In this document: one piece after another, positions 1-28,730 of the stretch | How the letters are laid out: each line of letters begins with the position of its first letter | Position numbering within the stretch: position 1 is the first letter of the stretch | Virus record (IMG/VR): IMGVR_UViG_3300033141_004322 | Coordinates: 1-40,028 of that record | Length of the DNA: 40,028 nt | Reading direction: 5' to 3' (one strand) | Source of the DNA: a virus | Position numbers and translations under genes: made by a program | The notes under the pieces: model-generated | The model's input: only the letters and a program-made list of their open reading frames with translations | Told to the model about the DNA's origin: nothing | Databases searched by the model: none

Positions 1-114
1 AACATTTTTAAATTTGAAAAAAGCGCCTGTGGTGTTAACAGCAGCATGTCTGGCCTTTAAGAAAAGAGGAAACCAGAAGACCAGAGTTCAAATCCATGCA
101 GGCGCATAGACCCC
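1..114. repeat. Terminal direct repeat, left copy
   Basis: Bases 1-114 are identical to bases 39915-40028, and both copies reach the ends of the window. The repeat carries a complete tRNA-like gene. An exact overlap at both ends means a circular or circularly permuted molecule read past its start, or a genuine short terminal repeat. The sequence alone cannot separate these. Confidence 0.95.
23..106 (+). tRNA. tRNA-like gene with an intron-sized insert in the anticodon arm (left copy)
   Basis: The acceptor stem is perfect: GCGCCTG at 23-29 pairs with CAGGCGC at 99-105, followed by discriminator A106. A D-stem GTGT/GCAT (32-35 with 44-47) forms with two G-U pairs. The anticodon stem TCTGG (49-53) pairs with CCAGA (73-77). 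Between them lie 19 bases instead of 7, so a 12-base intron is plausible. CCTTT (54-58) can pair with AGAGG (65-69), leaving an AAA bulge as in relaxed archaeal bulge-helix structures. The T loop has TTCAAAT, but two of the five T-stem pairs are mismatched. The anticodon cannot be fixed: TTT would need C at position 33. It may be a degenerate tRNA or a tRNA-like structure. No CCA is encoded. Confidence 0.5.
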
Positions 115-8885: not shown

Positions 8886-9385
8886 GTGAACTGACAACTA
8901 AACCGTCTAAATTAGATAATTTTAAAGGAAAAAGACATATTCTTACTAAAGAAGATTCAAGAAAAGGAGGCAAAACTCTTACACCTTACAGAAAATTCAT
9001 GCTAACAATTAAAAGAAAAATAAAATGCAGGGCAAAATGCCCTTATTTTCCTTGCTTGTTCCAACCATTATCAAAGGAAAGATATGATGGAAAATGTGCT
9101 GCTAGGCATCAAACTCCACAGATGCTCAAGAAATTCTTTAAGCTTATTTCTGGGGAAGAGTCTGAATTTTTAAAGATAATGAGTGAATCTCTTTGTAAAA
9201 TCTCGGATAACAAAGACCTGATCAAATATGGAGAGAAGGTCTTCAACATGAAGTTTGGAAAAAAACAGAGAACACAATTATCTGGAGAAGTAGGGCTTAC
9301 AAAAGACAAATTTATGGAAGTAGTTGAAAGAATAGATAAAGCTGAAAAATTAAAAGAGAAAGAAAATGACAAACAGGAAATTTGA
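8882..9385 (+). CDS. Putative terminase small subunit (167 aa)
   Basis: The gene overlaps the large terminase gene by 20 bases and has the right position and size for the DNA-recognition subunit. It has a basic N-terminus, a Cys cluster (CRAKCPYFPC, then CAARH) that could bind zinc, and a helical C-terminus ending in a Lys/Glu coil suited to oligomerisation. There is no sequence motif that proves TerS, and the assignment is mainly from position. The Cys cluster is unusual for TerS. Confidence 0.55.
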   Translation: MSELTTKPSKLDNFKGKRHILTKEDSRKGGKTLTPYRKFMLTIKRKIKCRAKCPYFPCLFQPLSKERYDGKCAARHQTPQMLKKFFKLISGEESEFLKIMSESLCKISDNKDLIKYGEKVFNMKFGKKQRTQLSGEVGLTKDKFMEVVERIDKAEKLKEKENDKQEI

Positions 9386-10781
9386 CAGATTATGGGAAAG
9401 AAGATTGCCTGTTTACAGAAAAGACCCTGTAAAATTTGCTGTTGAAATATTAGGAGTAAATCCCGATAGGATTCAAAGGAAAATACTTTGGGATGTTTAT
9501 AGATATGACTTGACTGCTGTTAAATCAGGCCATGGTATAGGCAAGACTTTTTGTGCATCAATAACAACTTTATGGTGGATTAGCTGTTATCCAAACAGCA
9601 GGGCAGTGACAACAGCACCAACTGGAAGACAAGTAAGAGAAGTTTTATGGGCGGAAATACATAAGCTTTCAAGGAGAACCATATTAACAAGTTTTATGAG
9701 ATTTTTAACGACAAAAATAGAAATAACAAAACATTGGGGGGCTATTGGAATATCATCAGACAGGCCTGAAAATATAGAAGGTTTTCATGCTGATTATTTA
9801 TTATTTATTATTGATGAGGCAAAAGGGGTAATCCAGGATATTTTTAACGCAGTAATGGGGACACAGACAACAAAAACAAAAGTATTGATTATTTCAACAC
9901 CATCACCCAATCCATTAGGAGAATTTTTTAATGCTTTTAAGAAAGGCAGTGTATATCATACAATAGAAGTCAGCTGTTTTGATTCTCCAAGACCAGGAAT
10001 GAAAAAATACATTAAGATGATGAAGAAAAAATATGGAGAAAATAGCCCAATTTACCAAATGAAGGTTCTTGGAAAGTTTCCTGATATTAGCGAAGATACA
10101 TTAATACCATGGAAACATGTCAATGCAGCAGTAAAGAGAAAAATAACTTTAGACCCTGAAATTAAATTTATCAGGATATTGGCCTGTGATCCTGCAAGAT
10201 TTGGTATGGATAAGACAGTTATTGTAATTTTTGACTGGCAGAAAGAAAAGGACAGATGGCTTAAGAAAATGGTGCATGGCGAATCGCATATTAAGAAATC
10301 AACAACATGGACAGCAGGAAGAATAAAAGAATTAGATGATAAGTGGCATTGCGACCAATTAAGGGTAGACTGCGGGGGTGGAGACATTGGAGCAGGAGTT
10401 GTGGATCAATTAAACAATAATGATTTGATTTCACATAAAGTTGTTCCTTTTGTTGCTGGTGGAAAAGAAGGCATGTCTGAAACAGATAAAAATGATTATT
10501 CAAACTGGAAAGCAAAAGCATATGACAGTTTAAGGATGGACTTTGAATATGGGACAATAGATATATGGGATTTTGAAGATCTTTGTGAACAGTTAATTCT
10601 TTTGAGAAAAGATTATACTACAACACAAAGATTAAAAATACTTGATTATGATGAAGAAATAAAGGGAACAGATATTAAACATAAAAGTCCTGATTATGCT
10701 GATGCTGTAAATATTGCATGTGCGCCTTTAATGATGGAAGAAGTTCATGTTATTGATGATCCTGAAGGATTAATTTTATAA
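9366..10781 (+). CDS. terL: Terminase large subunit (DNA-packaging ATPase/nuclease)
   Basis: 471 residues. The ATPase part has Walker A SGHGIGKT (54-61), Walker B LLFIIDE (D150, E151) and the coupling motif STP (177-179). The nuclease part has an RNase H-like layout with acidic residues D275 (ACDPARFG), D335 and D340 (VDCGGGDIGAG) and a C-terminal SPDYADA. It pumps DNA into the procapsid through the portal and cuts the concatemer. The Walker A Ile is encoded by ATA, showing that ATA reads as Ile internally. The gene is complete and ends before a clear terminator. Confidence 0.96.
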   Translation: MTNRKFDRLWERRLPVYRKDPVKFAVEILGVNPDRIQRKILWDVYRYDLTAVKSGHGIGKTFCASITTLWWISCYPNSRAVTTAPTGRQVREVLWAEIHKLSRRTILTSFMRFLTTKIEITKHWGAIGISSDRPENIEGFHADYLLFIIDEAKGVIQDIFNAVMGTQTTKTKVLIISTPSPNPLGEFFNAFKKGSVYHTIEVSCFDSPRPGMKKYIKMMKKKYGENSPIYQMKVLGKFPDISEDTLIPWKHVNAAVKRKITLDPEIKFIRILACDPARFGMDKTVIVIFDWQKEKDRWLKKMVHGESHIKKSTTWTAGRIKELDDKWHCDQLRVDCGGGDIGAGVVDQLNNNDLISHKVVPFVAGGKEGMSETDKNDYSNWKAKAYDSLRMDFEYGTIDIWDFEDLCEQLILLRKDYTTTQRLKILDYDEEIKGTDIKHKSPDYADAVNIACAPLMMEEVHVIDDPEGLIL

Positions 10782-10871: not shown

Positions 10872-10918
10872 CCTGGGAGGTCTATGATTTCTCCCTCCCA
10901 GGAACCTCACCTTTTTTT
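10872..10918 (+). terminator. Hairpin plus T-run terminator after terL
   Basis: CCTGGGAGG (10872-10880) pairs perfectly with CCTCCCAGG (10894-10902) around a 13-base loop. Seven T follow at 10912-10918. It is the most stable hairpin I see in an intergenic region and separates the packaging genes from the sulfosugar module. T-runs alone terminate archaeal transcription, so the hairpin may add processing or stability. Confidence 0.7.
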
Positions 10919-10969: not shown

Positions 10970-11965
10970 ATGAGATATATGGTGACAGGTGGTTTGGGTT
11001 ATATTGGTTCCTGGCTTTCTAAAAAACTTCTTGAAGATGGGCACCATGTGGTTATAGTGGATAATGCAACTACTCATGACTTGGCAATTTATGATAAGGC
11101 CAGGACACAGTTGGACAAATATAAAAGATTTTCTACGATTTTAATAGAAGATTTTGGAACATTAAGGCCTGAAGATTTAAAATGTATTGATTGCATATTT
11201 CATCTTGCTGCAGTTAGCGGGGTAAAAAAATGTGAAGAAGATAATCACACCGCATATGAGAACAATGTTGAGAAGACTAAAAAACTTGTTGATCTTGCTG
11301 TTGAATGCGGGGTTAAGAAGATAATTTTTACTTCATCAGCAGCAGTATATGGAAGATTTCAAGAATGCAAAGAAGAAATGACACATCTTGAGCCAATGAA
11401 CTTTTATGCAAGCACTAAATTAAAAGGGGAAAAAATAATCCTTGAAAAAGAAGGAATACAGGGAATAGTTGTAAGATTAAGCAATGTTTACGGATATGGA
11501 TTTTATGATAAGAATACTGTAGTTAGTAAATTTATTAATGACGGGATGCATAAAAGCCATCTTACATTGTATGGATCAGGAAGGCAGGCAAGGGATTTTA
11601 TTCATATAGATGATGTCTGCGGGGCACTCATGTATTTGGCAAACAATCATGAAGAAAATAAAGGATTATACAATATAGGAAAAGGAACATCAATTTCAAT
11701 TAAGAAAGCAGGTAAAATGACAATTAAAGAGCTTGCAAAAATAAACATTAGTTACAAGAATTTAATAATAAAGCATGAAAAGACTGAAAGAATAGAACCT
11801 CAAATGGGATATAAATTTAGTATAAAAAAAATAAAGAAAATTGGATGGAAGCCAAAAATATCATTTAAAATGGGTTTAAAAAAGTTAGTTAAAAGAAAAT
11901 ATCTACTGGAGGATCACAATAATGGTGCATCTGAATCAAAAACAATTAATGATACAGAGAAATAA
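10970..11965 (+). CDS. NAD-dependent sugar-nucleotide epimerase/dehydratase
   Basis: 331 residues, extended short-chain dehydrogenase fold. The NAD-binding glycine motif is GGLGYIG (7-13). The catalytic triad is visible as S122/S123 in TSSAAVYG with Y146 and K150 in YASTK. Later, RDFIHIDDV is the usual substrate-side motif. The closest functional type is UDP-glucose/UDP-galactose 4-epimerase or a dTDP/GDP-sugar dehydratase; the sequence does not settle which. It probably prepares a nucleotide sugar for the glycan built by the downstream glycosyltransferase. It is first in a five-gene module with sulfite and sulfosugar genes. Confidence 0.88.
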   Translation: MRYMVTGGLGYIGSWLSKKLLEDGHHVVIVDNATTHDLAIYDKARTQLDKYKRFSTILIEDFGTLRPEDLKCIDCIFHLAAVSGVKKCEEDNHTAYENNVEKTKKLVDLAVECGVKKIIFTSSAAVYGRFQECKEEMTHLEPMNFYASTKLKGEKIILEKEGIQGIVVRLSNVYGYGFYDKNTVVSKFINDGMHKSHLTLYGSGRQARDFIHIDDVCGALMYLANNHEENKGLYNIGKGTSISIKKAGKMTIKELAKINISYKNLIIKHEKTERIEPQMGYKFSIKKIKKIGWKPKISFKMGLKKLVKRKYLLEDHNNGASESKTINDTEK

Positions 11966-12260
11966 AATAGCACACCTGTGTGTGTTCGAGAGCAGCAGAC
12001 ACAGGAACTGTATTCGCTTTGGGTTAAATGAGGGAGATGCCCATATAGATGAAAAAGTTAAGATAGCAAAGAAACTCAGAAGAGAAGGGAAAAAATACAT
12101 AACTGAGGCAGTATTCAAAACCGGAGGACGGGCAGATATCCTTTGCCTTGATGATGGAATTGCCTATGAGATAGTTGATTCAGAAAAAGAGGAAAGTATT
12201 GAAATAAAGAAAGAAAAATATCCAAAGGAATTGGAGATTGTTGCGATTGTGGTAAAATGA
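11922..12260 (+). CDS. Small PD-(D/E)XK-like (CoiA/VRR-type) protein
   Basis: 112 residues, starting after GGAGG and overlapping the epimerase gene by 44 bases. The core reads E62 (YITEAVF), then GGRADIL with D72, then AYEIVDS with E83. This spacing (E, G-RAD, E-x-x-S) is that of small PD-(D/E)XK nuclease domains like the one in competence protein CoiA. The usual final Lys or Gln is not clear. It could act on nucleic acid or be a degenerate domain. Its presence inside a sugar module is unexplained. It overlaps the reductase start as ATGA. Confidence 0.5.
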   Translation: MVHLNQKQLMIQRNKIAHLCVFESSRHRNCIRFGLNEGDAHIDEKVKIAKKLRREGKKYITEAVFKTGGRADILCLDDGIAYEIVDSEKEESIEIKKEKYPKELEIVAIVVK

Positions 12261-12964
12261 TAACATTCAAGGAAAAGGTTAAAAAAGCCAGGGAAGTAAT
12301 TTTAGAAGCTATAAATAAATATGGGGGCAAACTTGCTGTTGCCTGCAGTTTTGGAAAGGATAGTGCAGTGCTTACACATTTGGCAATACAAATTAAGCCA
12401 AATATACAGATTTTTTCAATAATGACACCATTTAAGCCAATAGACACATTTATGTATAAGGATTGGTTTGAAAGGGAATACAATCTTAATATCAAAACAT
12501 TCAAAAGCAAAGAAGATCCTGAAAAGAAAATAAAATTAACATGCGGCAAAATTGTTAAATTAAAAGACCTTTACAAGTATGATCCTGATGGCTGCTGCAT
12601 GATATTCAAGGTTGAGCCGACAAAAGAAGCAATTAAAAAATTAAAATTAAGGGCATGGATAAGCGGGTTGAGAAAGGATGAAGGAAGAACAAGAATTGAT
12701 TATAAGCATGTGGAAGAGAAGGATGGACTGGTTAAGGTTAATCCAATTTTGAACTTTACAGAAACAGATATATGGAAGTATCTGGCATGTTATGGAGTCA
12801 GGCCTCATCCTTGGTATAAAAGAGGATATAGGAGTCTTGGATGCGAACCATGCACTAAACTCGTTGATGATAGTGCTGAAGAACGTGCAGGAAGATGGAG
12901 TGGAACCAGGAAAGCAGGAGGAGAATGCGGGATACATACTAAGTCTCTCGTTTATGAAAAATGA
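12257..12964 (+). CDS. cysH: Phosphoadenylyl/adenylyl-sulfate reductase (CysH-type)
   Basis: 235 residues. The PP-loop is SFGKDSAVL (31-39). Cys pairs CC (113-114) and C196-x2-C199 match the 4Fe-4S ligands of the APS-reductase branch, and ECGIH with C224 near the C-terminus is the catalytic motif. The enzyme reduces PAPS or APS to sulfite plus PAP or AMP, using thioredoxin-like reductant. In this setting the sulfite would feed the UDP-sulfoquinovose synthase two genes downstream. CysH-like genes are known as auxiliary genes in viruses. A DndC-like or other PP-loop role is possible but less likely with ECGIH intact. Confidence 0.85.
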   Translation: MITFKEKVKKAREVILEAINKYGGKLAVACSFGKDSAVLTHLAIQIKPNIQIFSIMTPFKPIDTFMYKDWFEREYNLNIKTFKSKEDPEKKIKLTCGKIVKLKDLYKYDPDGCCMIFKVEPTKEAIKKLKLRAWISGLRKDEGRTRIDYKHVEEKDGLVKVNPILNFTETDIWKYLACYGVRPHPWYKRGYRSLGCEPCTKLVDDSAEERAGRWSGTRKAGGECGIHTKSLVYEK

Positions 12965-13191
12965 AAATAAGCAATGCATTAAAAAAATCACTTACATATA
13001 GATTATTGAATTCTTTATTAATAACGCCTTTTATTGTTTTTACTTTAAGCGGCCAGTTTAATTTAAGTTTAAATGTTGGAATTATTGAACTTATTGTTAA
13101 AATTTTAGGTTATTATGCTCATGAAAAAATATGGAATTTGAAAGACAAGGAAACTTTTGTGAAAAAAATTAAAAGGAGGTTTGGGTGGTAA
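12961..13191 (+). CDS. DUF2061-like small membrane protein (76 aa)
   Basis: ATG 12961 overlaps the reductase stop. Two hydrophobic segments (about residues 15-32 and 37-53) are followed by YYAHEKIWN. The SLTYRLLNS start and the YY-HE-W end are the signature of DUF2061 membrane proteins. I recall this family occurring beside sulfate-activation genes, which fits the neighbours, but its function is not known. It may help sulfate or sulfite handling at the membrane. Confidence 0.7.
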   Translation: MKISNALKKSLTYRLLNSLLITPFIVFTLSGQFNLSLNVGIIELIVKILGYYAHEKIWNLKDKETFVKKIKRRFGW

Positions 13192-13194
13192 AAA

Positions 13195-14382
13195 ATGAAA
13201 GTATTAGTGCTGGGTGCAGATGGATATCTTGGGTGGCCGTTGAGTATGTATCTGACTGTTAAAAACCATGATGTTGTTGGAGTTGACAATTTATCCAGGA
13301 GAAACAGAGTAATGGAAAGAGGAGCAGATACAGGCATTCCAATGGCAAGTCCTCAAGAAAGATTAAGCACCTTTAAGAAACATTTTAAGAAGGAAATTGA
13401 TTTTAGAATAATGGATTTAAGGAATACAGAGAAAGTTTTTAAACTAATGAAAGAAATACAGCCGGAAGCAATAGTCCATTTTGGGGAAATACCAAGTGCG
13501 CCTTATTCAATGAGGGATGTTTATACAGCAATTGAAAACCATGATGTGAATGTAAACGGAACCTTGAATGTTTTGTGGGCTATGCATAAGTATTGTCCTG
13601 AAGCACATTTAATTAAATTAGGGACAATGGGAGAATATGGAACTCCTGGTGTAAAAATAAATGAAGGATATGTAAAAAGCATCAACGGGGAAGAAATAGA
13701 TGATAAAGTTAAAATGCTTTTTCCAAGAGATGCAGGAAGTTTTTATCATCAGACAAAAGTCCATGATACGCATAACATAAGATTTGCATGCAAGATATGG
13801 AATTTAAGGTCTACAGATATAATGCAGGGAGTAGTTTATGGAACAAGAACAGAGCAGACTGAAAGAGATCCTTTATTGCATACCAGGTTTGATTTTGACA
13901 GTGTGTGGGGAACAGCAGTAAATAGGTTTGTAGTCCAGGCAATTCTTGGAATTCCATTAACAGTATATGGAGCTGGAGGACAGACAAGAGGATATCTCAA
14001 TATAATTGACACTATGAGATGCATAGAAACTTTAATCAATAATCCATGTGAATTTGGGGAATACAGGACAGTGAATCAGTTTACACAAGTAAAGAGTATT
14101 ACAGAAATTGCAGAATTAGTTAAGAAAGCAGGAGATAAATATGGATTAAATGTGAATATAAAACCAATACCAAATCCAAGAATAGAAGCAGAGAAACATA
14201 AATATCCAGTTGAACAAAAAATATTAAGGCAGCTTGGTTTTGAAAGAAGCAAGACAATGGAAGAATCAATAGAGTATATGATATCAGATTTGCTGCCACA
14301 TACAGATAGATTAGAAAAATTTAAAAAATCTGTAATGCCTAAGATTAAATGGAACCAGGAAAAGGCAAGGATAATGGAATAA
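13195..14382 (+). CDS. sqdB: UDP-sulfoquinovose synthase
   Basis: 395 residues, matching plant SQD1, bacterial SqdB and archaeal Agl3 in order and length. The NAD motif is GADGYLG (7-13). HFGEIPSAPYSM, LGTMGEYG with T144, and Y184-x3-K188 are the family's active site. VVYG, then QTRGYLNI, then NQFT are diagnostic of this enzyme rather than a general epimerase. It converts UDP-glucose and sulfite to UDP-sulfoquinovose. The sugar is a head group of sulfolipid in bacteria and plants and a component of N-glycans in Sulfolobus. With CysH nearby, the virus covers both the sulfite and the sulfosugar step. The start follows AGGAGG (13175-13180). Confidence 0.94.
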   Translation: MKVLVLGADGYLGWPLSMYLTVKNHDVVGVDNLSRRNRVMERGADTGIPMASPQERLSTFKKHFKKEIDFRIMDLRNTEKVFKLMKEIQPEAIVHFGEIPSAPYSMRDVYTAIENHDVNVNGTLNVLWAMHKYCPEAHLIKLGTMGEYGTPGVKINEGYVKSINGEEIDDKVKMLFPRDAGSFYHQTKVHDTHNIRFACKIWNLRSTDIMQGVVYGTRTEQTERDPLLHTRFDFDSVWGTAVNRFVVQAILGIPLTVYGAGGQTRGYLNIIDTMRCIETLINNPCEFGEYRTVNQFTQVKSITEIAELVKKAGDKYGLNVNIKPIPNPRIEAEKHKYPVEQKILRQLGFERSKTMEESIEYMISDLLPHTDRLEKFKKSVMPKIKWNQEKARIME

Positions 14383-14486
14383 TGGTTTTGTAAGCAGTCA
14401 CAAGAAAGTAATACCCTCCGGAGAGCGAAAGGGGGAGTTTGACAAGCAAAAACTTAAATTAAATTAATTTCATTTAAATTATAATC
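14383..14486 (+). promoter_or_regulatory. Late promoter and GC-rich tract before the portal gene
   Basis: AAAAACTTAAATT occupies 14448-14460 and the portal ATG is at 14487, 39 bases from its first base; the other copies of this motif are 35 bases from their ATG. A GC-rich tract with the palindrome CTCCGGAG (14416-14423) and a G-run lies just upstream and may end the preceding transcript. Confidence 0.65.
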
Positions 14487-16619
14487 ATGAAAGGTATAAG
14501 ATCTTTGTTTGGTTTGAGTCTTGTTAAGTCCAGGGATTATAAAATTCTTAAAGATAAAATTGAAAAATGGGACAACAGGCCGTCAAGAGGAATGGATGAT
14601 ATAGGAACAGCAGAAGAAGGACTCCTGCCGTTAATGTTTTTTAGTTTTTTTGATATAGAGGTTATATTCCAGTATTCTGATACATTGCAGACAATAATAA
14701 CTGCCTTGACTCGCGAGATATTCAGGAATTGGGGAGAATTTAAGGAAAAGTTTGTTAAGAAATGTGAGGCTTGTGGAAAGGAATATGACAGTGATATTGA
14801 CAAGTGTGAAACAAAAGGATGCAATGGAATACTAAGAGATCCTAATGCTGCACAGCTTGATATAGTAAGAGAGTTATTTGAAGGCGGGTGGGTTAATTTA
14901 AACAAACAGGATCTTAGCGATATATCGGAAGAATTGAATAATGATCTTGAAAAATTTGACATTTGTTATCTTATGTTTAATAAAGAATACATCTGGACTG
15001 GAAAAAAAGTTTACGAATCAAAAATAAAAGAATTGATAAGGGCAGATCCAAGAGTTATGAGGCTTGTTGCAGATAAAAAAGGAAGGCTTGGATATGATGA
15101 GAATGGAAACAAAGTTTATACTTGTTTGAAACACAGGAATCAGTTATTCAGACATCCACAAAAAACCTGCACAATGTGTGGAAGTGAATTATACCAAGCT
15201 CATTATGTTGATATAGGCATGGATGGGACACAGAAGACATATTATGTTGAAGGGGAAATATTTCATACAACAAAATACAAAAAATCACTTACATATGGAT
15301 GGCCTAAGGTTTTATCATGTTATCAAAAGGTAATGACTTTATTTCATATGGATAGAATGATGCTTGACTGGTATAGGGGAAGAAGGCCACCAAGAGGATT
15401 ATTGCTTGTGGCAATTAAAGCATGGAGTTCTTTTACAAAAGCCTGGGAGTGGTTATTGAAAAAAGTCAAGAAAAACCCGGGACAAATATGGCCTCTTGGA
15501 ATTGAAACAACATCAGCCAAAGGGGGAAAGCTTGCAGAGTTTATTAATTTTATGAACACAATGGAAGAAATGCAATACATACAAGCCAGGGAAGAAATGA
15601 GAAAAACAATAGGGGGTCTTTGGGGGGTCATGCCGGTATACCAGGCAGATGTAAGTGCAAGCGGCGGTCTTAATAATGAAGGGATGCAGATAACAGTCAC
15701 AACAAGAGCAGCTCTTTACGGCCAGAAGATATTCAATAACAAAATTTTCAAAGAAATATTAAGGCAATATGGGGTGACTGACTGGGAATTTATTTTAAAC
15801 AGTCCTGAAGAAAAAGATGAGATGGCAGAAAAACAAAGAAATTATTTAGACGTCCAGACAGCAAGTTTAATGAGAAATATGGGCTTTGATGTTAAATATA
15901 ATGAGAATGGGGATTTTGAATATTCAGGAGAAGCATCTGAACCAATACAGATACCTTTTGGATCGCAATTTCAATCATCAAAACCAAAGATTGTAGATGA
16001 AACAGCACATAACCAGGGACAGCCTGAGAAGTTTACTAAATCTACAAAAAAAAAAGATGACGAGGCATATACAACGCAGGAACTTCTTGAATTTATCCAG
16101 GAACAGGTTGAGGATGTTGAAAAAGAAGTTCAGGCAAATGTAATTTATAAAGCAGATGATCTTAATGATTTTTTAAGAAGAACAATATTTGATCTTACAT
16201 TCAAATCAATGACTAAAAAACAAAGTGATACTATTAAAAATTATCTTATTTCTAAAATTGGAGAAAAAATAAGCATGAGTTCAATAATTGAAAAAATAAT
16301 GAAAGTCGGGAAGGTTGACAGAAACCAGGCAGAGAGAATAACAAGAACTGAATTTATTAATGTTCTTCAAAATAAATCAAGGGAATATTCTTATAAAAAA
16401 CTAGATCCAAAAGGAGAGTATAAATTTGTATGGATGGGCCCTAAGGATCATAGGACAACAAAAATATGTGAGGCAATATCAGCAAGAACAAAAAAAGGAG
16501 TAAGCATGGAAGAATTAAAGAAAATAATTAAAAAGTTTGCAGATCCTGAAATATATGATCCTTCAAGACCATGGACACCCCACATCAACTGCAGACATAG
16601 GATGCTTAGAAAAGTTTAA
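14487..16619 (+). CDS. Portal protein fused to MuF-like minor head domain
   Basis: 710 residues. The first ~470 have the portal layout: N-terminal helical region, wing, a conserved central segment (GLWGVMPVYQAD) and the helical crown. The C-terminal ~100 (AERITRTEFINVLQ, then FVWMGPKDHRTTKIC, then WTPHINCRHRM) are the phage Mu F-like head morphogenesis domain. Two Cys clusters sit inside the portal: C93/C96/C107/C112 and C213/C228/C231 with H216. These look like inserted zinc knuckles, which are unusual in portals. The portal forms the DNA channel at one capsid vertex. The promoter is immediately upstream. Confidence 0.85.
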   Translation: MKGIRSLFGLSLVKSRDYKILKDKIEKWDNRPSRGMDDIGTAEEGLLPLMFFSFFDIEVIFQYSDTLQTIITALTREIFRNWGEFKEKFVKKCEACGKEYDSDIDKCETKGCNGILRDPNAAQLDIVRELFEGGWVNLNKQDLSDISEELNNDLEKFDICYLMFNKEYIWTGKKVYESKIKELIRADPRVMRLVADKKGRLGYDENGNKVYTCLKHRNQLFRHPQKTCTMCGSELYQAHYVDIGMDGTQKTYYVEGEIFHTTKYKKSLTYGWPKVLSCYQKVMTLFHMDRMMLDWYRGRRPPRGLLLVAIKAWSSFTKAWEWLLKKVKKNPGQIWPLGIETTSAKGGKLAEFINFMNTMEEMQYIQAREEMRKTIGGLWGVMPVYQADVSASGGLNNEGMQITVTTRAALYGQKIFNNKIFKEILRQYGVTDWEFILNSPEEKDEMAEKQRNYLDVQTASLMRNMGFDVKYNENGDFEYSGEASEPIQIPFGSQFQSSKPKIVDETAHNQGQPEKFTKSTKKKDDEAYTTQELLEFIQEQVEDVEKEVQANVIYKADDLNDFLRRTIFDLTFKSMTKKQSDTIKNYLISKIGEKISMSSIIEKIMKVGKVDRNQAERITRTEFINVLQNKSREYSYKKLDPKGEYKFVWMGPKDHRTTKICEAISARTKKGVSMEELKKIIKKFADPEIYDPSRPWTPHINCRHRMLRKV

Positions 16620-16622
16620 AGA

Positions 16623-16635
16623 AAAAACTTAAATT
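16623..16635 (+). promoter_or_regulatory. Late promoter AAAAACTTAAATT
   Basis: The 13-base motif starts exactly 35 bases before ATG 16658, giving a leaderless message. Confidence 0.7.
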
Positions 16636-16657
16636 GAATTGATTTCTAATTTAAATT

Positions 16658-16831
16658 ATGGCAGATATTGATGTTGAAGTTGTTAAAACAAATCTTAATG
16701 ATATGGAGACTGATGTCCAGGCAGCTATTGATGGAGTGGCTAATGTTGACAAGTCAAAAGTTCCAACAACAAGTATAGCAAAACTTTCAGGAGATACATG
16801 CATTGTTTTGATTTGTGTGCCAACAACTTAA
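16658..16831 (+). CDS. Small late structural or assembly protein (57 aa)
   Basis: It has its own late promoter and no Shine-Dalgarno. It reads MADIDVEVVKTNLNDMETDV in the first part and ends TCIVLICVPTT. Acidic helix first, hydrophobic strand last. Its place between portal and connector genes suggests a virion or assembly factor. No family is recognised. Confidence 0.6.
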   Translation: MADIDVEVVKTNLNDMETDVQAAIDGVANVDKSKVPTTSIAKLSGDTCIVLICVPTT

Positions 16832-16833
16832 CT

Positions 16834-16846
16834 AAAAACTTAAATT
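16834..16846 (+). promoter_or_regulatory. Late promoter AAAAACTTAAATT
   Basis: Motif copy starting 35 bases before ATG 16869, directly after the stop of the 57-residue gene. Confidence 0.7.
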
Positions 16847-16868
16847 ATTCTGAAAATATATAGTTATT

Positions 16869-17339
16869 ATGGTATTTGATGAATCTGAATTTAAAAGACA
16901 GTGCAGGGAAGAAATAGATGAACAGTTAAATAAAGAAATGGATGATATTATTGATGATATTTTTTTCAAAAGCCAGGAACTGCTTGATATAACAAATAAA
17001 ACAACAGACCAGGGATTCCTGGCCAGCAATGTTGATATTTTAAAAATGCATTTACAAAAAGAAATAAGATATAATGCCTCTTATGCAGCATGTATTGAAT
17101 TTGGGACAAGGCCGCATTTTCCTCCAGTTGATGAATTAAAGCCGTGGGTAAGAAGAAAATTAGGTGTTTCATTAAAAAATGTTGATAATGTAGCCAGGAG
17201 AATTGCATGGAAAATATATCATTATGGAACAGATCCACAGCCTTTTTTAACACCACCAATAAATGAATATGTTTCAAAAGGGATTCTTGAATATGATATG
17301 TCAGGAGTAGGATCATTAGGAGCTGTAATATATGGTTAG
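16869..17339 (+). CDS. HK97 gp10-like head-tail connector/tail completion protein
   Basis: 156 residues. The stretch with ASYAACIEFGTRPHFPP, then KPWVRRKLG, then YGTDPQPFLTPP is the hallmark of the HK97 gp10/minor tail family (A-x-Y-A, E-x-GT, P-F-PA). These proteins sit at the head-tail junction or close the tail. The N-terminal helix is acidic. It is placed earlier than usual, between portal and protease, and is leaderless. It overlaps the protease gene by eight bases. Confidence 0.7.
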   Translation: MVFDESEFKRQCREEIDEQLNKEMDDIIDDIFFKSQELLDITNKTTDQGFLASNVDILKMHLQKEIRYNASYAACIEFGTRPHFPPVDELKPWVRRKLGVSLKNVDNVARRIAWKIYHYGTDPQPFLTPPINEYVSKGILEYDMSGVGSLGAVIYG

Positions 17340-18888
17340 AATACTTAATGATGAAGACAGAATATTTGAAGCATGGGGCAGTGTTGAAATCAGAGATATA
17401 GAGGGAGACCTTTTACCAATGGAAGAATTTGAACCTATAATGCCGATTTTAATGAAAAGAGGGGGCTTTATTATTGATGATCATTCTAACAGGGTTGTCG
17501 GGAAAATTTTAAATTACCAGTTTAAGGGGAAAGAAATTGACGGTAAAGTTGTTCCTGGATTGCTTTTAACAAATCAAATATTCAAAGATTATAAGACAGA
17601 TGATGAAGTGTGGGGTGATATAGTCAATGGAGGAGCTAAGGGAATGAGCTTTGGAGGAAGATCCAGGGCGCCAATAGAAAGAAAAGTTATTGACGGGCAG
17701 CCAACAAACATAAGAAGACAATTAGAAGGCTTTGAGTTCACAGTTGTAAGGGGAGATAAAATTCCAGTTAATCCTGAAGCAGAAATAACATATGCAAATA
17801 CAATGGCTAAATCTACAAAATGCAGGTATGTTAAATTTGGTGATGTTCATGTTTGCATCCCATGCAATAAAGAACAAAATGTTTTATATGATATTGATTT
17901 CAAAAAAGGCGCACAGCTTCTTAATAAAAAAGTTGAAAAAAGAGGAAATAAATGGTGTGTAGTTCATTGTCACGGGCCTGATGCGGGAAAACCAATAAAA
18001 TGTTTTGATACAAAAGAAGAAGCTGATAGAATGCATAGGGCCATTCAAGCAAATAAATCAAAGGAGATGAAAAAAATGCCGGAAGATAAAAGACCACCTA
18101 AATCTTGGTGGGATAATTGTATAGGAACTGCTAGAGGAATAAAAGGAATGGAAGATCCAGAGGCTTTTTGCGGCTGGATGTGGCACCATGGTAAAGGTGC
18201 AGGATTTGGGCCACAAAGAGAAGCCATTGGAAAATCATTTGACAGTATTTTTGACAAGGCCATTGAGTTTTATAAAAGCAACATAAAACTTAAATTGGAT
18301 AAAGAACTAAATAACAATATGGCAGACGGACAAATTAAGAAAAATAATGAGGAATCTACAATAATGAAAGCTTTGGATGAGTTGAAAAAACTTGTTGAAG
18401 CTAATACAGAAAAGATTTCAGCATTAACAAAACAGGACGAAGAAGAAGACAAAAAGAAAAAAGAAGAAGAAGATAAAAAAAAGAAAGAAGAAGACAAGGA
18501 AACAAATAAAGCAGAAGGAGCACCAGAAGGAACTGATTCAGCAGAAGGCGGGGAAGGTGCAAAAAAGAAACTTCCTGAAGATATTGCAGAAAAAGTCCAT
18601 GAAGAACAACCTGGGGATTCTGCACCCGAAAAGGTAAAACTTGAAAAGGGGCAGATGGAAGAGATTGTTAAAAATGTTATCAAAGCTCTTGAAATAACCA
18701 AGAGCACAACTGGAAGACCTGGAATTATTTCAGATAAGCATGAAAAGAAAGATGATCCAAATGAAAATCTTGCTCTTGAAATAGCAAAAGGAAAACATCC
18801 AGTTGGGACTGGTTATCAATACCAAGAAGGCATGGATGAAGAAGAAAGGAAGAAAATCTTAAAAGCTATAAAAGGTGATAAGAAATGA
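17332..18888 (+). CDS. Prohead protease/scaffold fusion (XkdF-like)
   Basis: 518 residues. The first ~150 (EAWGSVEIRDIEGD, then GGFIIDDHSNRVVGKIL, then MSFGGRSRAP) resemble the XkdF-type serine protease that matures capsids. A middle segment with CRYVKFGDVHVCIPC, then WCVVHCHGPDAGKPIKCF and EEADRMHRAIQANK looks like an inserted Cys/His-rich phage module. PKSWWDNC to DPEAFCGWMWH is another small phage motif. Residues ~340-420 form a Lys/Glu coiled coil typical of a scaffold. The C-terminus KGDKK encodes the GGTGAT site of the capsid gene, whose ATG overlaps this stop. Confidence 0.75.
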   Translation: MVRILNDEDRIFEAWGSVEIRDIEGDLLPMEEFEPIMPILMKRGGFIIDDHSNRVVGKILNYQFKGKEIDGKVVPGLLLTNQIFKDYKTDDEVWGDIVNGGAKGMSFGGRSRAPIERKVIDGQPTNIRRQLEGFEFTVVRGDKIPVNPEAEITYANTMAKSTKCRYVKFGDVHVCIPCNKEQNVLYDIDFKKGAQLLNKKVEKRGNKWCVVHCHGPDAGKPIKCFDTKEEADRMHRAIQANKSKEMKKMPEDKRPPKSWWDNCIGTARGIKGMEDPEAFCGWMWHHGKGAGFGPQREAIGKSFDSIFDKAIEFYKSNIKLKLDKELNNNMADGQIKKNNEESTIMKALDELKKLVEANTEKISALTKQDEEEDKKKKEEEDKKKKEEDKETNKAEGAPEGTDSAEGGEGAKKKLPEDIAEKVHEEQPGDSAPEKVKLEKGQMEEIVKNVIKALEITKSTTGRPGIISDKHEKKDDPNENLALEIAKGKHPVGTGYQYQEGMDEEERKKILKAIKGDKK

Positions 18889-20042: not shown

Positions 20043-20178
20043 AAACTGAATTAATCTCTTTTAAGGTTTTTTAAGAAGCCTATTAGCAAACAAATCAGAG
20101 GGCCTTTGACAAGGTCAGTATATCCCAGAAATCCCTGGGTGCGACTAAGGGTTGAAAATATTAAAAAGGTGAAAAAAA
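20043..20178 (+). other. Intergenic region with two small hairpins after the capsid gene
   Basis: CCTT/AAGG around TGAC (20103-20114) and CCCAG/CTGGG (20124-20128 with 20135-20139) are two short stem-loops. They could stop or process the capsid transcript, or stabilise the decoration-protein message. A weak TATA-like stretch (AAAATATTAAAAA) precedes the next gene. No open frame is seen. Confidence 0.35.
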
Positions 20179-20556: not shown

Positions 20557-20593
20557 ACCTGTTATTGAGAACGGGACTATTTTGAATTAGGGC

Positions 20594-20614: not shown

Positions 20615-20627
20615 CTTTAAATTAAAT

Positions 20628-22409
20628 ATGGTTTTACGAGTTGATAAAGTTTCTAAAGAAGAATTAACTGAATTTTCTCTCCAGACAAACAGATTTACAA
20701 AAGACACAACTGATGTTGCTGTTATTATGCCATGCAATAACCGGATAGAATATGCAGCACAGGCAATTATGAGTGTTCTAAATCAGACATATAAAAACAT
20801 AGTTCTCTTGTGTGTTGGAATGCCTGATGATAATACAAGAAGGTTTTTAGAGATAGTGAATGACAAAAGAATTGTTTATTTGATTAATGATAATCCAACA
20901 CTTGCAAGCAGCACTAATCTGGCATTAAAGTATATAGAAGAAGAACTGCCAAGAGTAAAATATATAACACGGTGTGATGATGATGATTTTTTAGCGCCAA
21001 ACAAAGTAGAAAGAATAAGAACATATATGAGAGTGCACCCTGAATTAGATTTAGTGCATCATGGGTTCAAAATAACCAATTCAAAAGGAGAAGTAAATAT
21101 GGAAGAAAAGATTTATTTTGTTCCTGAAGAATTAATAGAATACTCTAACATATATGACGGAACAATTATGTTTAGAGCGGATAAAATAAAAGGAATTTAT
21201 CTTGATGAAACACTTCCAGGATTGCCTTACTATGACTGGTTTATCAGGCTTTATAAAAAAGGCTTCAAGATAGGAGCCCTTGAAAAGTATACTGGATATT
21301 ACTACAGGCAGCATAAAGGAAACAATGTAAGAAAAATAAAAATCAAAGAAGTTTATAGAATTATCAGGGAAAAAAATAATATCAAACCAGAAGACCATAA
21401 ATGTGATGTGATGATTTTTTATACCTGGCTTGGAAGGGATTCAGGAATAACAGCAAGTGTCAATCATGCCAAATCTATATTGGAAAAAAATAGATACAAA
21501 GTTAAGATTCATGCATGCACAAGGCATAGTTTATATTCTTTAAAATTCAGGGTTCAGATATGCAAACCAAAAATAATTATTATCGAAAAGTTCAGGCTTA
21601 ATACAGATGAGTTTTTAATACTTGATGAAATGATAAACTGGCCGTGCAATATTCTAATCAGGGAGCATGGAAAGGCTGCCTTTTCATTGAAATTCTGGAA
21701 TAAGACATTAAGACATGAACATACTATTAATTTAGGGAACTGGATAAAACGATGCCATGCAGGAAGCTGCAATGAGGAATATGCAAATTATCTGTCAGAG
21801 TTGTATGATACAAAAGTTTTATGGATTCCAAATACATTCAGTAAAGATTTAATGAAAAAAGGAGTAAAATATGATGAAGGAATCCATGTGAGCATTTTAT
21901 GCGAGATCAGGCCGTTAAAAAATATGATTACACAATTGACAGCCTGCCAGTTGATAGGCAAATGGGCAAGGAAACAGGGAAAAGAACTTTATGTTCATAT
22001 TTTAAAAAGTGTTGGAGACTGGGGGTTTAGAAAAGAATTATTAGACAGGAAAAACAAGTTATTCTTTACTGTTGTAGAACATGATTATATGAATTTTAAT
22101 GATAACCAGAGATTAGTAAGCAAAATGGATTTATGTCTGCAGGTTAGTTATACAGAAACAATGAATTACTATGCTCTGGAACATATGATGCATGGGATAC
22201 CAGCATTGACAAGTGAGGCTATCCATTTCGGCGTAAAAGCCCCAATTGATGATCCTTTGGAAATAGCAAAGAAGGCCATTTTTATTTTGGATCCTGAAAA
22301 TTATCATACACATCAAAAGAAAGCAAAACAAGATGCTGAAAGATTTGTTGATAAAATTAATACAACTTATTTAAATTTAATCAAAAAGTTTATGGAGATG
22401 GATGATTAA
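20628..22409 (+). CDS. Two-domain glycosyltransferase (GT2-like GT-A plus GT-B-like)
   Basis: 593 residues. The N-terminal ~240 form a GT-A domain: VAVIMPCNNR (30-39), AIMSVLNQTY, and the metal-binding Asp run at 117-120 (RCDDDDFLAP), then YYDWFIRLYKKG. The second half (from ~265: CDVMIFYTWLGRDSG, then KVLWIPNTF, then ISVSYTET-like QVSYTETMNYYALEHMMHGIPA) is a GT-B C-terminal domain with the nucleotide-sugar-binding E-x-x-x-x-G pattern. Two catalytic domains could add two sugars in turn. UDP-sulfoquinovose from the module at 10970-14382 is a natural donor candidate. It is transcribed from its own promoter and coupled to the methyltransferase (ATG overlap). Confidence 0.85.
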   Translation: MVLRVDKVSKEELTEFSLQTNRFTKDTTDVAVIMPCNNRIEYAAQAIMSVLNQTYKNIVLLCVGMPDDNTRRFLEIVNDKRIVYLINDNPTLASSTNLALKYIEEELPRVKYITRCDDDDFLAPNKVERIRTYMRVHPELDLVHHGFKITNSKGEVNMEEKIYFVPEELIEYSNIYDGTIMFRADKIKGIYLDETLPGLPYYDWFIRLYKKGFKIGALEKYTGYYYRQHKGNNVRKIKIKEVYRIIREKNNIKPEDHKCDVMIFYTWLGRDSGITASVNHAKSILEKNRYKVKIHACTRHSLYSLKFRVQICKPKIIIIEKFRLNTDEFLILDEMINWPCNILIREHGKAAFSLKFWNKTLRHEHTINLGNWIKRCHAGSCNEEYANYLSELYDTKVLWIPNTFSKDLMKKGVKYDEGIHVSILCEIRPLKNMITQLTACQLIGKWARKQGKELYVHILKSVGDWGFRKELLDRKNKLFFTVVEHDYMNFNDNQRLVSKMDLCLQVSYTETMNYYALEHMMHGIPALTSEAIHFGVKAPIDDPLEIAKKAIFILDPENYHTHQKKAKQDAERFVDKINTTYLNLIKKFMEMDD

Positions 22410-24056: not shown

Positions 24057-27000
24057 ATGGTAAAGATATTAAGAAGATGGATTGAGAACCTTATTACTTT
24101 TTTGTTAGTATGGACTTCTTTTGGCGTTAAAGTATTTGAACTTCCTAAATCTATTATTCAAAAAGAGAATTATTCTTATTCCAAAAGAAGAAAATATCAT
24201 ACTCATGAAGTATCTGATACATTAAAAAGATATAGTCATCGTATTGCATCAGTCCACAAGGCAATTCTTGGAAAATTCATGCATAATTTAGAGATTGCTG
24301 ATTATAACAAGAAAATGGGTAAATACTTTGCTATTCAAAGATGGGCTAAAGAACATTCTATCCAGATTAGGAAAATTGGAACTATTATTACAATTACAGC
24401 AATAGCAAGTGCTGGAGTTTCTGAACTATTTGATGTATGGCAGATGATGGGAATTGAGATTACAGGCTATTCAGATGACATGACTTGCGGAGGAGACATT
24501 CTTTGCGAGGCTTATATTAATATCTCTACTGTTAACCAAATTGAGTATATGATACAGACTGACTTTAGCCAAAATTGGAAGTTTGAACCAAATGTAACTT
24601 CTAACGAGAAATTCTATGTGTTTAAAAAAGGAGAATGGGTAGAGGTAGAATATATTACTTTTATACGAGGTAACGAATATCAGTTGAAAATAACAGCAGA
24701 AAAGCCAAAAGGAAAGACAGTCAAATGGACAGCTCTTTTCGGGGATGAAGTAGACCCTTATTGGTATAGTATCGGAGGAGGAATTAGTATTAATGCAAAA
24801 CAATCAAAGAGTTATAGTATAGATTTAATCAATAATGAAGAAGGAATAATAATTACAGTAAATGATTCTTCTGTAATAGTTAATAAAACAGAGAAATCTC
24901 TTACAATAAATGGGCAAGTCCGAAAGCTACCTAATTCAACTAACGGAACAAGATATTTGGGGTTCTCTGCTAATGGAAGCCATATGACTGGTGATTCTTA
25001 TCTAAAATATGGAGATACAACTCTTACTCCTTCTGATTTAAAGTATAAGGCATCTAAAACATGGGGGAACCACTATGTTAAGGATATTTACTATAAATCT
25101 TTTAACTTAAATGGTGGATTTGAGAAGGATTTTGAACTAAAAATCTACTACAATAGCCGACCTGATAATATGTATATTTACTTTGGTTCTGGAAGTTCGG
25201 TGATTCATCTTGGAGCAATCACATCTTCTACAGCTGAAATGTGGATAAACTATGGAAAAGGTGAATGGTATCAGGAAGATGAGCTGGCAATAAGTGTTTT
25301 AGGTCCTCTCTCTGGTGATGTGGTTTATGATAGCAGAGCCACAGACAAGTCTTGGATAGATGGAAACCAATATTTCCATGGAACACCCGAGGGCTGTTAT
25401 GTTACTGGAACTAAAATGGTCTTTAAGTATATGACTCCTTTTTTTATTCAATGGGATTATGATGGAGCACATGAATACAATAAAACATATTATGGAGAGT
25501 TTTCTGCTTATGGAGACATAATAGGAACAGCTGGAAATTCATATGGAGCACTTGTTAGAATGGACAGGAAAGGAGTAGATGGAAACTGCAGGAATAATTA
25601 TTATTATGGGGGAACAGGAGGAAGCAACCCTAATATTTTCTGCCATGAGGATTCAGATGCAAATGTAAGAGGATACGGTAGATGGCAGGATTCCTGCACT
25701 GTATCAGAACCTGCAGGAGCAACAAGTATTAGAAATGCAGCTCTCTTTAGATTTTCAGATGGATTTACTATTTGTGTTGTGCATAATAATAATGATGACC
25801 CAGACGGACTTGCCACTGCACAATATCAGGAAGGGAATGATGAAATTAATTTAAAATTTGGAATGGATTCAACTGCTAATTATTCTCTTAATAGTGATTT
25901 TGACCAATGGTTTACTGTATTTGGTTCAGCAAGTGATGCAGAAGCTCAGGATAGGTGTTGGGATGCTTTAACAAGACTTGAAGGAATTTCTGTTCCAAAT
26001 GCAGTTGCTACAAATCATACAAGTTTTACATTCGTAACAGGAGGAGGATGGAATGAATCAAATATACACGGATTTTTTTGGCATGATGGAACTTCAGATG
26101 AACTCTCTGAGGTTTCTATTACTCAAGGAAATGTCTCAGGATGGATTTATCTAACAGGAAATAATAATTACACCCAAAATGATGAAATTTATGTTTATAA
26201 CTCCACTGTAGATTTTACAGATGCTAAAGATAATTTATATGTTTATGCAACTGAATCTGGAGGAACTTGGACTTGCCAAACAGGAAGTTCTGAATGTTCT
26301 AATGGAGATGAAATAGGGCTTGATTACAATAACACATTTATGGAGGAAGCAGCCACTGACCAAGCAAGATTTCATGCGAAGATTTGGATGGATGCAGGCA
26401 CTACTCAATATATTGTAGTAGCATCTACAAGCCAGGAACAATTTAATCCCACTTGCGATTCATGTTCTCTTATTAATTCAACTGAAATAACTTTAGGAGA
26501 TACTATATTTTTTAATGTGTCAGCAAGTGATGCGAATGGATTATCTGATATAGACGGTGTAGGTATAAGAGTATTTGATGGAGTGAATAATCTTGTTTTT
26601 ACAAATGATACAGAAGTTTTTTCAAATACAACAGCAGGGTGGAGTAATGCTACATCAGGATTTGGAATATTAAATTCAACAGGGCTTTTAATAAACAATA
26701 TAGGGAATTATCAAATTCAGGCATTCATTACTGAAGATGACTGGGCTACTAATATAACTTGCCCTATAAATATTACTTTTGATGTAGTAGGGCCTCCTAA
26801 TGTAACTTGGACTGCTCAAACACCAGCAGATATAAATACTATTAATCTATTCAGTGAACTTCTAAATATCACATATACAATAGAAGATGCAACAAGTGAT
26901 TTGGACAACACAACAATACAATTATTCCATAAAACAAATAATACTTATAATGACCTTACATATTATGTAAATGGCACATCAAGGGCAGGATGGTTTACGG

Positions 27001-28730
27001 AATATTACACCCAGAACTGGACAAATAATTTATTTAACTGGAGTTTTGATGACGACAAGATATATCCTGGCGTCTTTCCTCTTGAGCCAGAAATTATGAA
27101 AGAATCCTCATTTAATACATGGGATTTGGATAATAAGAATGAATTTATTAAAATAAAACTTGTGAATGTCTCTTTGAAACATAGATTTAATTATTTTGAA
27201 CTGGTAGCAGAAAACCAGACGCAGGACTCTACTGCATTAAGAATATATTACTGCAATAATTCATATATAACTGGGAAAGTTGCAGATTCACCGCATTGTA
27301 TTAATTTTTATAATGTGTTTGGAGACACTGAATACAATCATACAGAAAATGGTGTGCCCGAGTATATTATTCCTTTTCCAATTGAAACAACAACCAATAC
27401 AACTGCAGGAGATATAATTGTCACTAATGAATCTTATTTTATTGTCAGAGGGCCTGAATCACAAGCAGATGGATGGGATATAGGATATGTAAGCGATGAG
27501 GCAAATGTTGTAGAAATATCAGCAAATAGTGGAATTAGTTGGAATCCATTCTCTGGAACTATGTATTTGGAGCTTCATCAATATTGTATAACAGATGTTT
27601 TTTATTACTTTGCAGAAGCATGCAATAATAAGGGACTTTGCACTAATAGTTCAGTTCAGAGTGATAATCTTGATGTGACACCATTGCCGCCAACAGTTCC
27701 TATTATCACAAATCCAGTGAATAAGACTTATGGAAAAATAATAAATATAACATGGCTTGAAGCAATATCTCCTACTGGAACAATTGAAAATTACAATATT
27801 ACTCTTGTTTATCACAATGAATCAGAAGTAAAAGTAATAAATGGAAATCTTACTGGCTTAAATTATGTCTGGAATACAAATGCAACAGCAGAGGGGGTAT
27901 ATAAAATAAAAATAACTGCTTATGATAATCAATCTCTTAGTAGTGATGGATTATCTGATTTATTTTCAATAGATAATACACCTCCAGGAATCAGCAATAA
28001 TTACACTTACATAAGCAGTGAATATCTGATAAACGGATACAATAAAACAGTTTTTAATAATACAAATCCAAATAATGAAACAAACTCAAACTTTCATGCA
28101 AATGCAACATTTACGGAGGCGACAACAAACTTATCTCATATTCTTTTCCATGTGAATAACACAAAAGGTGAATGGACAAATTATACACTTTATGATTATA
28201 CAGTTGATGCCAATACTACAAGCAAGAATGTTGAAATAAACCTTACTTTTGGAAACTTCACAAGAGAAGAATATTATGAATATGAATGGATTGTAAATGA
28301 TTCGGCAGACAGCACAAGCGTGCATAAAGGAAATATCTCATGCCTTAATATGACAGTGAGTGTGGAATTTCCTAGTGAATATACTACAGGAGAGATAACA
28401 TTCAACATAACAAATGGAACAGGGGTATTCAGCCCGAGATACCAGACTGATACTCAACCAGTATGGAATATTTCAAACATAGGAACATCAACAACAGATA
28501 CTTATTTTGCTATAAATGATACAATACCGTCATGCATGAGTATATGGGCTTCAACAGACAGCAGTCTGACATCAGCAGATACACAGTTTGTAAAAGATAC
28601 TTATGTTCCAGTAATAACAGGTTTAGGATTGTTAGATTACCAGGAGATTTGGCTGTTTGCTAATCTTACAAGTTGCTCTACACAATACTTTAATACCAGT
28701 GCAATTTATATTTTTAATAAGGAAGGTTAG
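24057..28730 (+). CDS. Giant sequon-rich surface protein (1557 aa)
   Basis: The N-terminal ~100 residues are basic. A hydrophobic segment (TIITITAIASAGVSEL, about 108-123) may anchor or export the protein. The rest is strand-rich with Ig-like/beta-sandwich character: a concanavalin-like region at about 240-400, then repeated domains with PPNVTW, PPTVPIITNP and DNTPPGIS linkers typical of archaeal surface proteins. I count about 65 N-x-S/T sequons, sparse before residue 600 and dense after it. If exposed, it would be a heavily N-glycosylated protein. It is probably a virion spike or a protein displayed on the host. The composition is like archaeal S-layer-associated proteins, suggesting host origin. 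Confidence 0.75.
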   Translation: MVKILRRWIENLITFLLVWTSFGVKVFELPKSIIQKENYSYSKRRKYHTHEVSDTLKRYSHRIASVHKAILGKFMHNLEIADYNKKMGKYFAIQRWAKEHSIQIRKIGTIITITAIASAGVSELFDVWQMMGIEITGYSDDMTCGGDILCEAYINISTVNQIEYMIQTDFSQNWKFEPNVTSNEKFYVFKKGEWVEVEYITFIRGNEYQLKITAEKPKGKTVKWTALFGDEVDPYWYSIGGGISINAKQSKSYSIDLINNEEGIIITVNDSSVIVNKTEKSLTINGQVRKLPNSTNGTRYLGFSANGSHMTGDSYLKYGDTTLTPSDLKYKASKTWGNHYVKDIYYKSFNLNGGFEKDFELKIYYNSRPDNMYIYFGSGSSVIHLGAITSSTAEMWINYGKGEWYQEDELAISVLGPLSGDVVYDSRATDKSWIDGNQYFHGTPEGCYVTGTKMVFKYMTPFFIQWDYDGAHEYNKTYYGEFSAYGDIIGTAGNSYGALVRMDRKGVDGNCRNNYYYGGTGGSNPNIFCHEDSDANVRGYGRWQDSCTVSEPAGATSIRNAALFRFSDGFTICVVHNNNDDPDGLATAQYQEGNDEINLKFGMDSTANYSLNSDFDQWFTVFGSASDAEAQDRCWDALTRLEGISVPNAVATNHTSFTFVTGGGWNESNIHGFFWHDGTSDELSEVSITQGNVSGWIYLTGNNNYTQNDEIYVYNSTVDFTDAKDNLYVYATESGGTWTCQTGSSECSNGDEIGLDYNNTFMEEAATDQARFHAKIWMDAGTTQYIVVASTSQEQFNPTCDSCSLINSTEITLGDTIFFNVSASDANGLSDIDGVGIRVFDGVNNLVFTNDTEVFSNTTAGWSNATSGFGILNSTGLLINNIGNYQIQAFITEDDWATNITCPINITFDVVGPPNVTWTAQTPADINTINLFSELLNITYTIEDATSDLDNTTIQLFHKTNNTYNDLTYYVNGTSRAGWFTEYYTQNWTNNLFNWSFDDDKIYPGVFPLEPEIMKESSFNTWDLDNKNEFIKIKLVNVSLKHRFNYFELVAENQTQDSTALRIYYCNNSYITGKVADSPHCINFYNVFGDTEYNHTENGVPEYIIPFPIETTTNTTAGDIIVTNESYFIVRGPESQADGWDIGYVSDEANVVEISANSGISWNPFSGTMYLELHQYCITDVFYYFAEACNNKGLCTNSSVQSDNLDVTPLPPTVPIITNPVNKTYGKIINITWLEAISPTGTIENYNITLVYHNESEVKVINGNLTGLNYVWNTNATAEGVYKIKITAYDNQSLSSDGLSDLFSIDNTPPGISNNYTYISSEYLINGYNKTVFNNTNPNNETNSNFHANATFTEATTNLSHILFHVNNTKGEWTNYTLYDYTVDANTTSKNVEINLTFGNFTREEYYEYEWIVNDSADSTSVHKGNISCLNMTVSVEFPSEYTTGEITFNITNGTGVFSPRYQTDTQPVWNISNIGTSTTDTYFAINDTIPSCMSIWASTDSSLTSADTQFVKDTYVPVITGLGLLDYQEIWLFANLTSCSTQYFNTSAIYIFNKEG

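Follow-up and report, generated by a model that had tools for sequence, protein, structure and literature searches.

A viral gene block that probably encodes a sulfosugar cassette, with CysH beside a homolog of UDP-sulfoquinovose synthase

Many viruses carry cysH, and the usual explanation for this, help with sulfur assimilation, has rarely been tested. The locus described here suggests one further reason. It lies in the IMG/VR virus record IMGVR_UViG_3300033141_004322, which is 40,028 bases long and was analyzed as a whole (hereafter the window), and it encodes a CysH-type reductase in the same block as a homolog of uridine diphosphate (UDP)-sulfoquinovose synthase, of the SqdB/SQD1/Agl3 family. 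That the block is real and viral is well established, and a sulfosugar pathway is very probable. Members of a single clade of viral CysH are repeatedly found coupled directly to a sulfosugar synthase, and this offers a specific and testable alternative role for cysH.

We propose that the block is probably a viral sulfosugar cassette, in which CysH feeds sulfite to the synthase and the product is put on a surface glycan. Under this proposal, CysH would reduce adenosine 5'-phosphosulfate (APS) made by the host to sulfite, and the SqdB-family enzyme would join the sulfite to UDP-glucose to give UDP-sulfoquinovose. The epimerase of the block would supply UDP-glucose or convert a partner sugar, and the DUF2061 protein would act as a small membrane helper in sulfate assimilation. 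The sugar would then be transferred to a surface glycan by a viral glycosyltransferase (encoded at 20628-22409) or by one of the host, the likeliest target being an N-glycan on a sequon-rich viral protein of 1557 amino acids or on a host surface protein.

A five-gene block in a complete virus genome

The block consists of five genes on one strand, in the order epimerase, an open reading frame (ORF) of 112 amino acids, CysH, DUF2061 and synthase (Table 1), and is located between the terminase (9366-10781) and portal (14487-16619) genes, both assigned with PHROGs. The genes are tightly packed, with successive spacings of -44, -4, -4 and +3 nt, and are separated from the terminase by 188 nt and from the portal by 104 nt. 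An earlier note, made from the sequence alone, had named four of these genes, and all four are present where it placed them; the 112-amino-acid ORF had been overlooked.

When the ends of the window were compared, an exact direct repeat of 114 nt was found common to both, and the virus genome is therefore complete. In addition, the contig L003 is 100% identical to window positions 12041-20723 and has the same gene order, CysH-DUF2061-synthase-portal. Along the block, the GC content stays even. The terminal repeat, the repetition of the CysH-to-portal arrangement in L003 and the even GC content together rule out a host contig misjoined to the virus, the event that the earlier note had considered fatal to its proposal. 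Terminase, portal and complete ends are found in one record, as expected for a head-tail virus, the tail match being only weak and of SPP1 type. The window is the genome of a tailed virus, probably one with an archaeal host.

Identity of the synthase homolog and of CysH

The protein encoded by the last gene of the block matches the NF041015 profile over its full length (1-384 of 384; 513.7 bits, E 2.8e-154), and the next family of short-chain dehydrogenases/reductases (SDR) scores 44.8 bits. It is 46% identical to Arabidopsis SQD1 over the full length (E 9.2e-112). The AlphaFold (AF2) model, with a predicted local distance difference test score (pLDDT) of 85.5 and a predicted template modeling score (pTM) of 0.87, has SQD1 (PDB 1QRR/1I24) as its best structural match (template modeling score, TM, 0.91; root mean square deviation 2.5; E 3.9e-48), followed by UDP-glucose 4-epimerases (TM 0.65-0.70, E about 1e-20). 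SQD1 is thus far ahead in the structural comparison that the earlier note had proposed, and the description of the gene product as a full UDP-sulfoquinovose synthase homolog is borne out by profile, sequence identity and modeled fold. A plain epimerase is ruled out by the profile, the fold and the tree. The window synthase misses the curated equivalog cut-off of NF041015 (575 bits); SQD1, aligned over 382 residues in the PDB search, itself scores only 484.7 bits on this profile, so that the cut-off is not a fair ground for exclusion.

The catalytic residues are also largely conserved. In Agl3 of Sulfolobus acidocaldarius, a cellular enzyme, alanine mutants of His95, Arg101, Met145, Tyr182 and Lys186 are inactive, and mutants of Ser180, Thr185, Glu147 and Tyr148 are impaired (PMC4388408). 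Nine of the ten residues mutated in Agl3 are kept in the window synthase (H95, T144, M145, E147, Y148, S182, Y184, T187 and K188), the active-site His95, Met145, Glu147, Tyr148, Ser180, Tyr182, Thr185 and Lys186 of Agl3 all being matched at corresponding positions. The likely archaeal glycan context is a further likeness to Agl3. The Thr-Tyr-Lys triad of SQD1, an SDR enzyme, is kept as well. The window synthase differs from SQD1, which serves plastid sulfolipid synthesis, in being viral, in standing beside CysH and in having Pro where SQD1 has Arg (position 100). As a separate observation, synthase-family sequences open much longer viral ORFs in L064 (8546-10687, 714 amino acids) and L071 (8525-10705, 726 amino acids), which are perhaps fusions or two joined copies.

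For CysH, the NF002537 score (188.3 bits) exceeds the curated cut-off of 154, and PF01507 matches with E 9.4e-43. The motifs are intact, as the earlier note had read them: the PP-loop SFGKDS, Cys113/114/196/199 (CC...CxxC) and ECGIH. A PP-loop, the CC...CxxC ligands and the nucleophile motif ECG(I/L)H are likewise kept in nearly all full-length members of the clade to which the window CysH belongs. Four Cys ligands of this kind are typical of [4Fe-4S] APS reductases, and from these ligands the enzyme is predicted to be thioredoxin-dependent and to use APS rather than 3'-phosphoadenosine 5'-phosphosulfate. On the tree, the window CysH falls in a mostly viral clade, within a subclade formed by four synthase-linked CysH (window, L005, L020 and L088), the CysH of L079 and one chromosomal sequence, L303.

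The pairing recurs in viruses and in cells

A degenerate-pattern scan of IMG/VR (2.9 million viral contigs) yielded 73 synthase loci, and two scans of IMG/VR yielded about eight distinct contigs with a CysH of the window kind. CysH directly adjoins the synthase in four of the eight, i.e., in the window virus, L005, L020 and L088, the synthase of L088 being cut by the contig end. The last three contigs are viral, as confirmed by terminase, portal/adaptor or capsid genes. A wider IMG/VR search for the CysH subclade gave no further close contigs. The search for cysH beside sqdB in viral genomes, suggested by the earlier note, thus shows that the pair recurs. On the tree, the window synthase and those of L005 and L020 occupy different parts, although the CysH proteins of the three viruses are related. 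The pairing has therefore probably formed repeatedly, and this speaks in favor of function.

The glycan cluster of L005 also contains APS-kinase-like and sulfotransferase-like genes. The two related viruses to which L005 and L020 belong have a major capsid ORF that breaks off at an equivalent position (L307, 4947-5534, 195 amino acids; L309, 12042-12653, 203 amino acids), which suggests an intron or a similar insertion. CysH was further observed in viral clusters for nonulosonic-acid-type sugars, recognized by eye from NeuB-like, cytidylyltransferase-like and amidotransferase-like genes (L079, 7874-13546; L006, 3009-8255), and the presence of CysH in viral glycan clusters thus reaches beyond sulfoquinovose.

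A similar arrangement is found in cells. The DPANN archaeon L159 and the Bipolaricaulota bacterium L180 each encode CysH, ATP sulfurylase and synthase one after another, ATP sulfurylase is followed by synthase at a contig edge in another DPANN genome (L158), and APS kinase is beside or near the synthase in two Bathyarchaeota. The operons of L159 and L180 share the pairing with the window, and the L159 operon is immediately followed by an epimerase gene. They differ from the viral block in having ATP sulfurylase, in a CysH of a different lineage and in genomes with no DUF2061 match.

On the synthase tree, the window SqdB groups with L157-L159 (99%), and the nearest cellular synthases, with 58-59% identity, belong to DPANN archaea, Aenigmatarchaeota among them; the synthase occurs in only 1 of 145 genomes of the Aenigmatarchaeota phylum. 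The CysH of L303, a Thermoproteota-phylum bin, is 60% identical to the window CysH, and other archaeal CysH reach at most 37% (300 genomes). SqdB would thus point to an Aenigmatarchaeota/DPANN host (59%) and CysH to the Thermoproteota-phylum bin (60%). Since the two point to different lineages, the host can be narrowed only to "probably archaeal."

Neither component is new to viruses by itself. UDP-sulfoquinovose synthase alone has been reported once, in a Mu-like virus of the Cariaco Basin, and was linked to N-glycosylation by its authors; that virus differs from the window in its Mu-like character, and cysH is unmentioned in the main text (PMC7785012). CysH is already known in archaeal viruses, e.g., as an auxiliary metabolic gene of Altivir_8_HURL, where it is taken as assimilatory sulfate reduction (PMC8324899); in the window, CysH is instead coupled directly to a sulfosugar enzyme. 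The earlier note knew of no description of the pair in a virus, and no report combining sqdB, cysH and a virus was found in the searchable, open-licence literature, although this absence is no proof of novelty. Among INPHARED phages, no match to the window synthase was found at E 1e-15.

Where the sulfosugar goes and how else the block can be read

The sulfosugar may be destined for the virion, for the host surface or for a lipid. Downstream of the block, the window encodes a glycosyltransferase with a GT2-like N-terminal part and a weak group-1-type match in the C-terminal part, a candidate for the sugar transfer, and also a weakly matched methyltransferase. The 1557-amino-acid protein contains 65 sequons where 26.1 would be expected (z 9.0), and its asparagine and serine/threonine residues stand in N-x-S/T at spacing 2 in 66 cases, compared to 17-33 at other spacings; no other protein of the window shows a sequon excess. 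These values suggest that the protein may be N-glycosylated in an archaeal host and make it the first candidate acceptor.

L003, the second copy of the virus, lacks the 52 nt at window positions 20724-20775, the rest of its 9.9 kb being 100% identical. The loss shifts the reading frame early in the glycosyltransferase gene and is possibly a gene inactivation or an assembly artifact; no flanking repeat was found around the 52-nt stretch.

Alternatively, the same enzymes could act on the host envelope and not on the virion, through a sulfonated surface glycan or a sulfolipid, e.g., to block superinfection. We regard this as a serious possibility, though one we would not bet on. Sulfoquinovose is known in archaeal glycans of Sulfolobales (PMC4388408), the virus SSV19 degrades the sulfoquinovose-bearing N-glycan of the host surface in this order (PMC12042106), and the viral SqdB of the Cariaco Basin was proposed to alter host N-glycosylation (PMC7785012). 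The virus's own glycosyltransferase and the strongly sequon-enriched protein make a viral target the more probable of the two. The block further offers a candidate chemistry by which sulfonated glycans, viral or host, could be made, and at least one archaeal virus acts on a host N-glycan of this type. A more far-reaching version is rather doubtful, i.e., that a nearly self-contained sulfonation route decorates the virus's own 1557-amino-acid surface protein with a sulfoquinovose N-glycan, that the whole viral CysH clade feeds sulfosugar and not cysteine synthesis, and that DUF2061 is a new membrane component of sulfate assimilation.

Several observations weigh against the proposed cassette. 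About 69 of the 73 viral SqdB loci have no CysH nearby, thus CysH is not required by every viral SqdB. No sequon-rich protein was found in the other CysH-SqdB viruses, which restricts the N-glycan idea to the window virus. Nothing related to the cellular ATP sulfurylase turned up in the window, and, with a CysH of APS-reductase type, the supply of sulfite therefore depends on host APS. Finally, Agl3 requires an Arg (R101A is inactive) that the mutagenesis primer locates in the motif AEQRSAP; the window synthase has Pro100 at this site, and catalysis may therefore differ. Accordingly, the claim of the earlier note that the virus supplies both the sulfite and the sulfosugar stands in part: fold, family, residues and linkage support the enzyme assignments and their joint function, but APS would come from the host and one essential Agl3 residue is changed.

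The absence of CysH from most viral SqdB loci, and of SqdB from several loci with related CysH (L080-L082), would be expected if CysH were an ordinary auxiliary gene of sulfur assimilation, increasing the supply of cysteine and iron-sulfur clusters, and if the synthase acted independently on host sulfite, their adjacency having no metabolic meaning. CysH is common in viruses and is usually taken as assimilatory, as in the archaeal virus Altivir_8 (PMC8324899). However, SqdB is rare in viral contigs, as the pattern scan showed, yet it adjoins this kind of CysH in half of the contigs that carry it, in differing arrangements or with SqdB of differing lineages, and the same pairing occurs in the cellular CysH-ATP sulfurylase-SqdB operons. 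We therefore consider the independent, assimilatory explanation improbable.

Least probable of all is that the SqdB-family protein lost the use of sulfite with the Arg-to-Pro change and gives another product, as a UDP-glucose dehydratase or epimerase; the missed NF041015 cut-off would be in line with such a loss, but Arg and Pro switch at least three times on the 65-sequence synthase tree with SQD1 nested among the Pro types, the Pro-type proteins L157 and L180 exceed the cut-off that SQD1 fails, and Pro-type synthases occur in sulfate-reduction operons. Pro is also found at this site in most of the viral and cellular relatives. With these repeated changes, the position of SQD1 and the scores of L157 and L180, Pro100 is a reason for caution and not the mark of a separate family. 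A Pro-type subfamily with a function of its own is likewise unsupported by the tree.

DUF2061, the epimerase and flanking elements

Viral DUF2061 adjoins CysH in the window, L005 and L079; a similar-looking protein after the CysH of L081 has no Pfam match. Among 148 genomes of Desulfobacterota, the phylum of a Desulfobacteraceae metagenome-assembled genome (MAG), 9 of 10 DUF2061 matches lie next to a gene for ATP sulfurylase, APS kinase, CysD or CysH. A fusion of DUF2061 with APS kinase (L279, 937-1683), beside CysD and a nucleotide-sugar dehydrogenase-like gene, ties DUF2061 directly to sulfate activation. Among 150 genomes of Pseudomonadota, the phylum to which a Rhodospirillales MAG belongs, only 1 of 30 loci was found to have sulfur genes beside it, and the link to sulfur is therefore limited to a subfamily or lineage. 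Judging from gene neighborhoods, we infer that DUF2061 of this subfamily acts at the membrane in sulfate assimilation. The linkage ties to this process an unassigned family, of which only four passing mentions were found in the literature searched.

Of 76 cellular and 59 viral loci, 14 and 10, respectively, have an SDR gene related to the window epimerase immediately next to the synthase. The 112-amino-acid ORF has no match in Pfam, NCBIfam or PHROG; its motif GRADIL..AYEIVDSE resembles PD-(D/E)xK nucleases, by eye only.

Table 1 Coordinates of features in the window
Feature	Position	Strand	Basis
Direct terminal repeat, first copy	1..114	.	Exact 114-nt match; second copy 39915-40028
Terminator-like hairpin, terminase/block interval	10872..10918	+	9-bp stem CCTGGGAGG/CCTCCCAGG, then T-run
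TATA-like AT-rich element 5' of epimerase start codon	10940..10950	+	Read from sequence; putative archaeal promoter
Nucleoside diphosphate-sugar epimerase, extended SDR, YxxxK present	10970..11965	+	PF01370, E 1.6e-47
112-amino-acid ORF, no family, overlaps both neighbors	11922..12260	+	Open reading frame
CysH, [4Fe-4S] APS-reductase type	12257..12964	+	NF002537, PF01507, motifs
Small DUF2061 protein (a predicted membrane protein in Pfam)	12961..13191	+	PF09834, 46.8 bits, cut-off 23.1
UDP-sulfoquinovose synthase homolog, SqdB/SQD1/Agl3 family	13195..14382	+	NF041015, SQD1 match, AF2 model
Two-domain glycosyltransferase, candidate sugar transferase	20628..22409	+	PF00535, 44.4 bits; PF13692, 20.0 bits, below cut-off
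Sequon-rich protein of 1557 amino acids, candidate N-glycan acceptor	24057..28730	+	Sequon excess

The block plausibly has its own promoter, given a putative terminator hairpin with a T-run after the terminase and a TATA-like stretch before the epimerase. The hairpin has a folding energy of -22.7 kcal/mol (z -2.45; 96-nt stretch folded), a consensus-based result that is suggestive.

A tRNA-like gene, which ARAGORN did not report when run on the window, was observed inside the terminal repeat (Rfam tRNA, 34.4 bits at 23-106); its anticodon loop is enlarged, perhaps by an intron.

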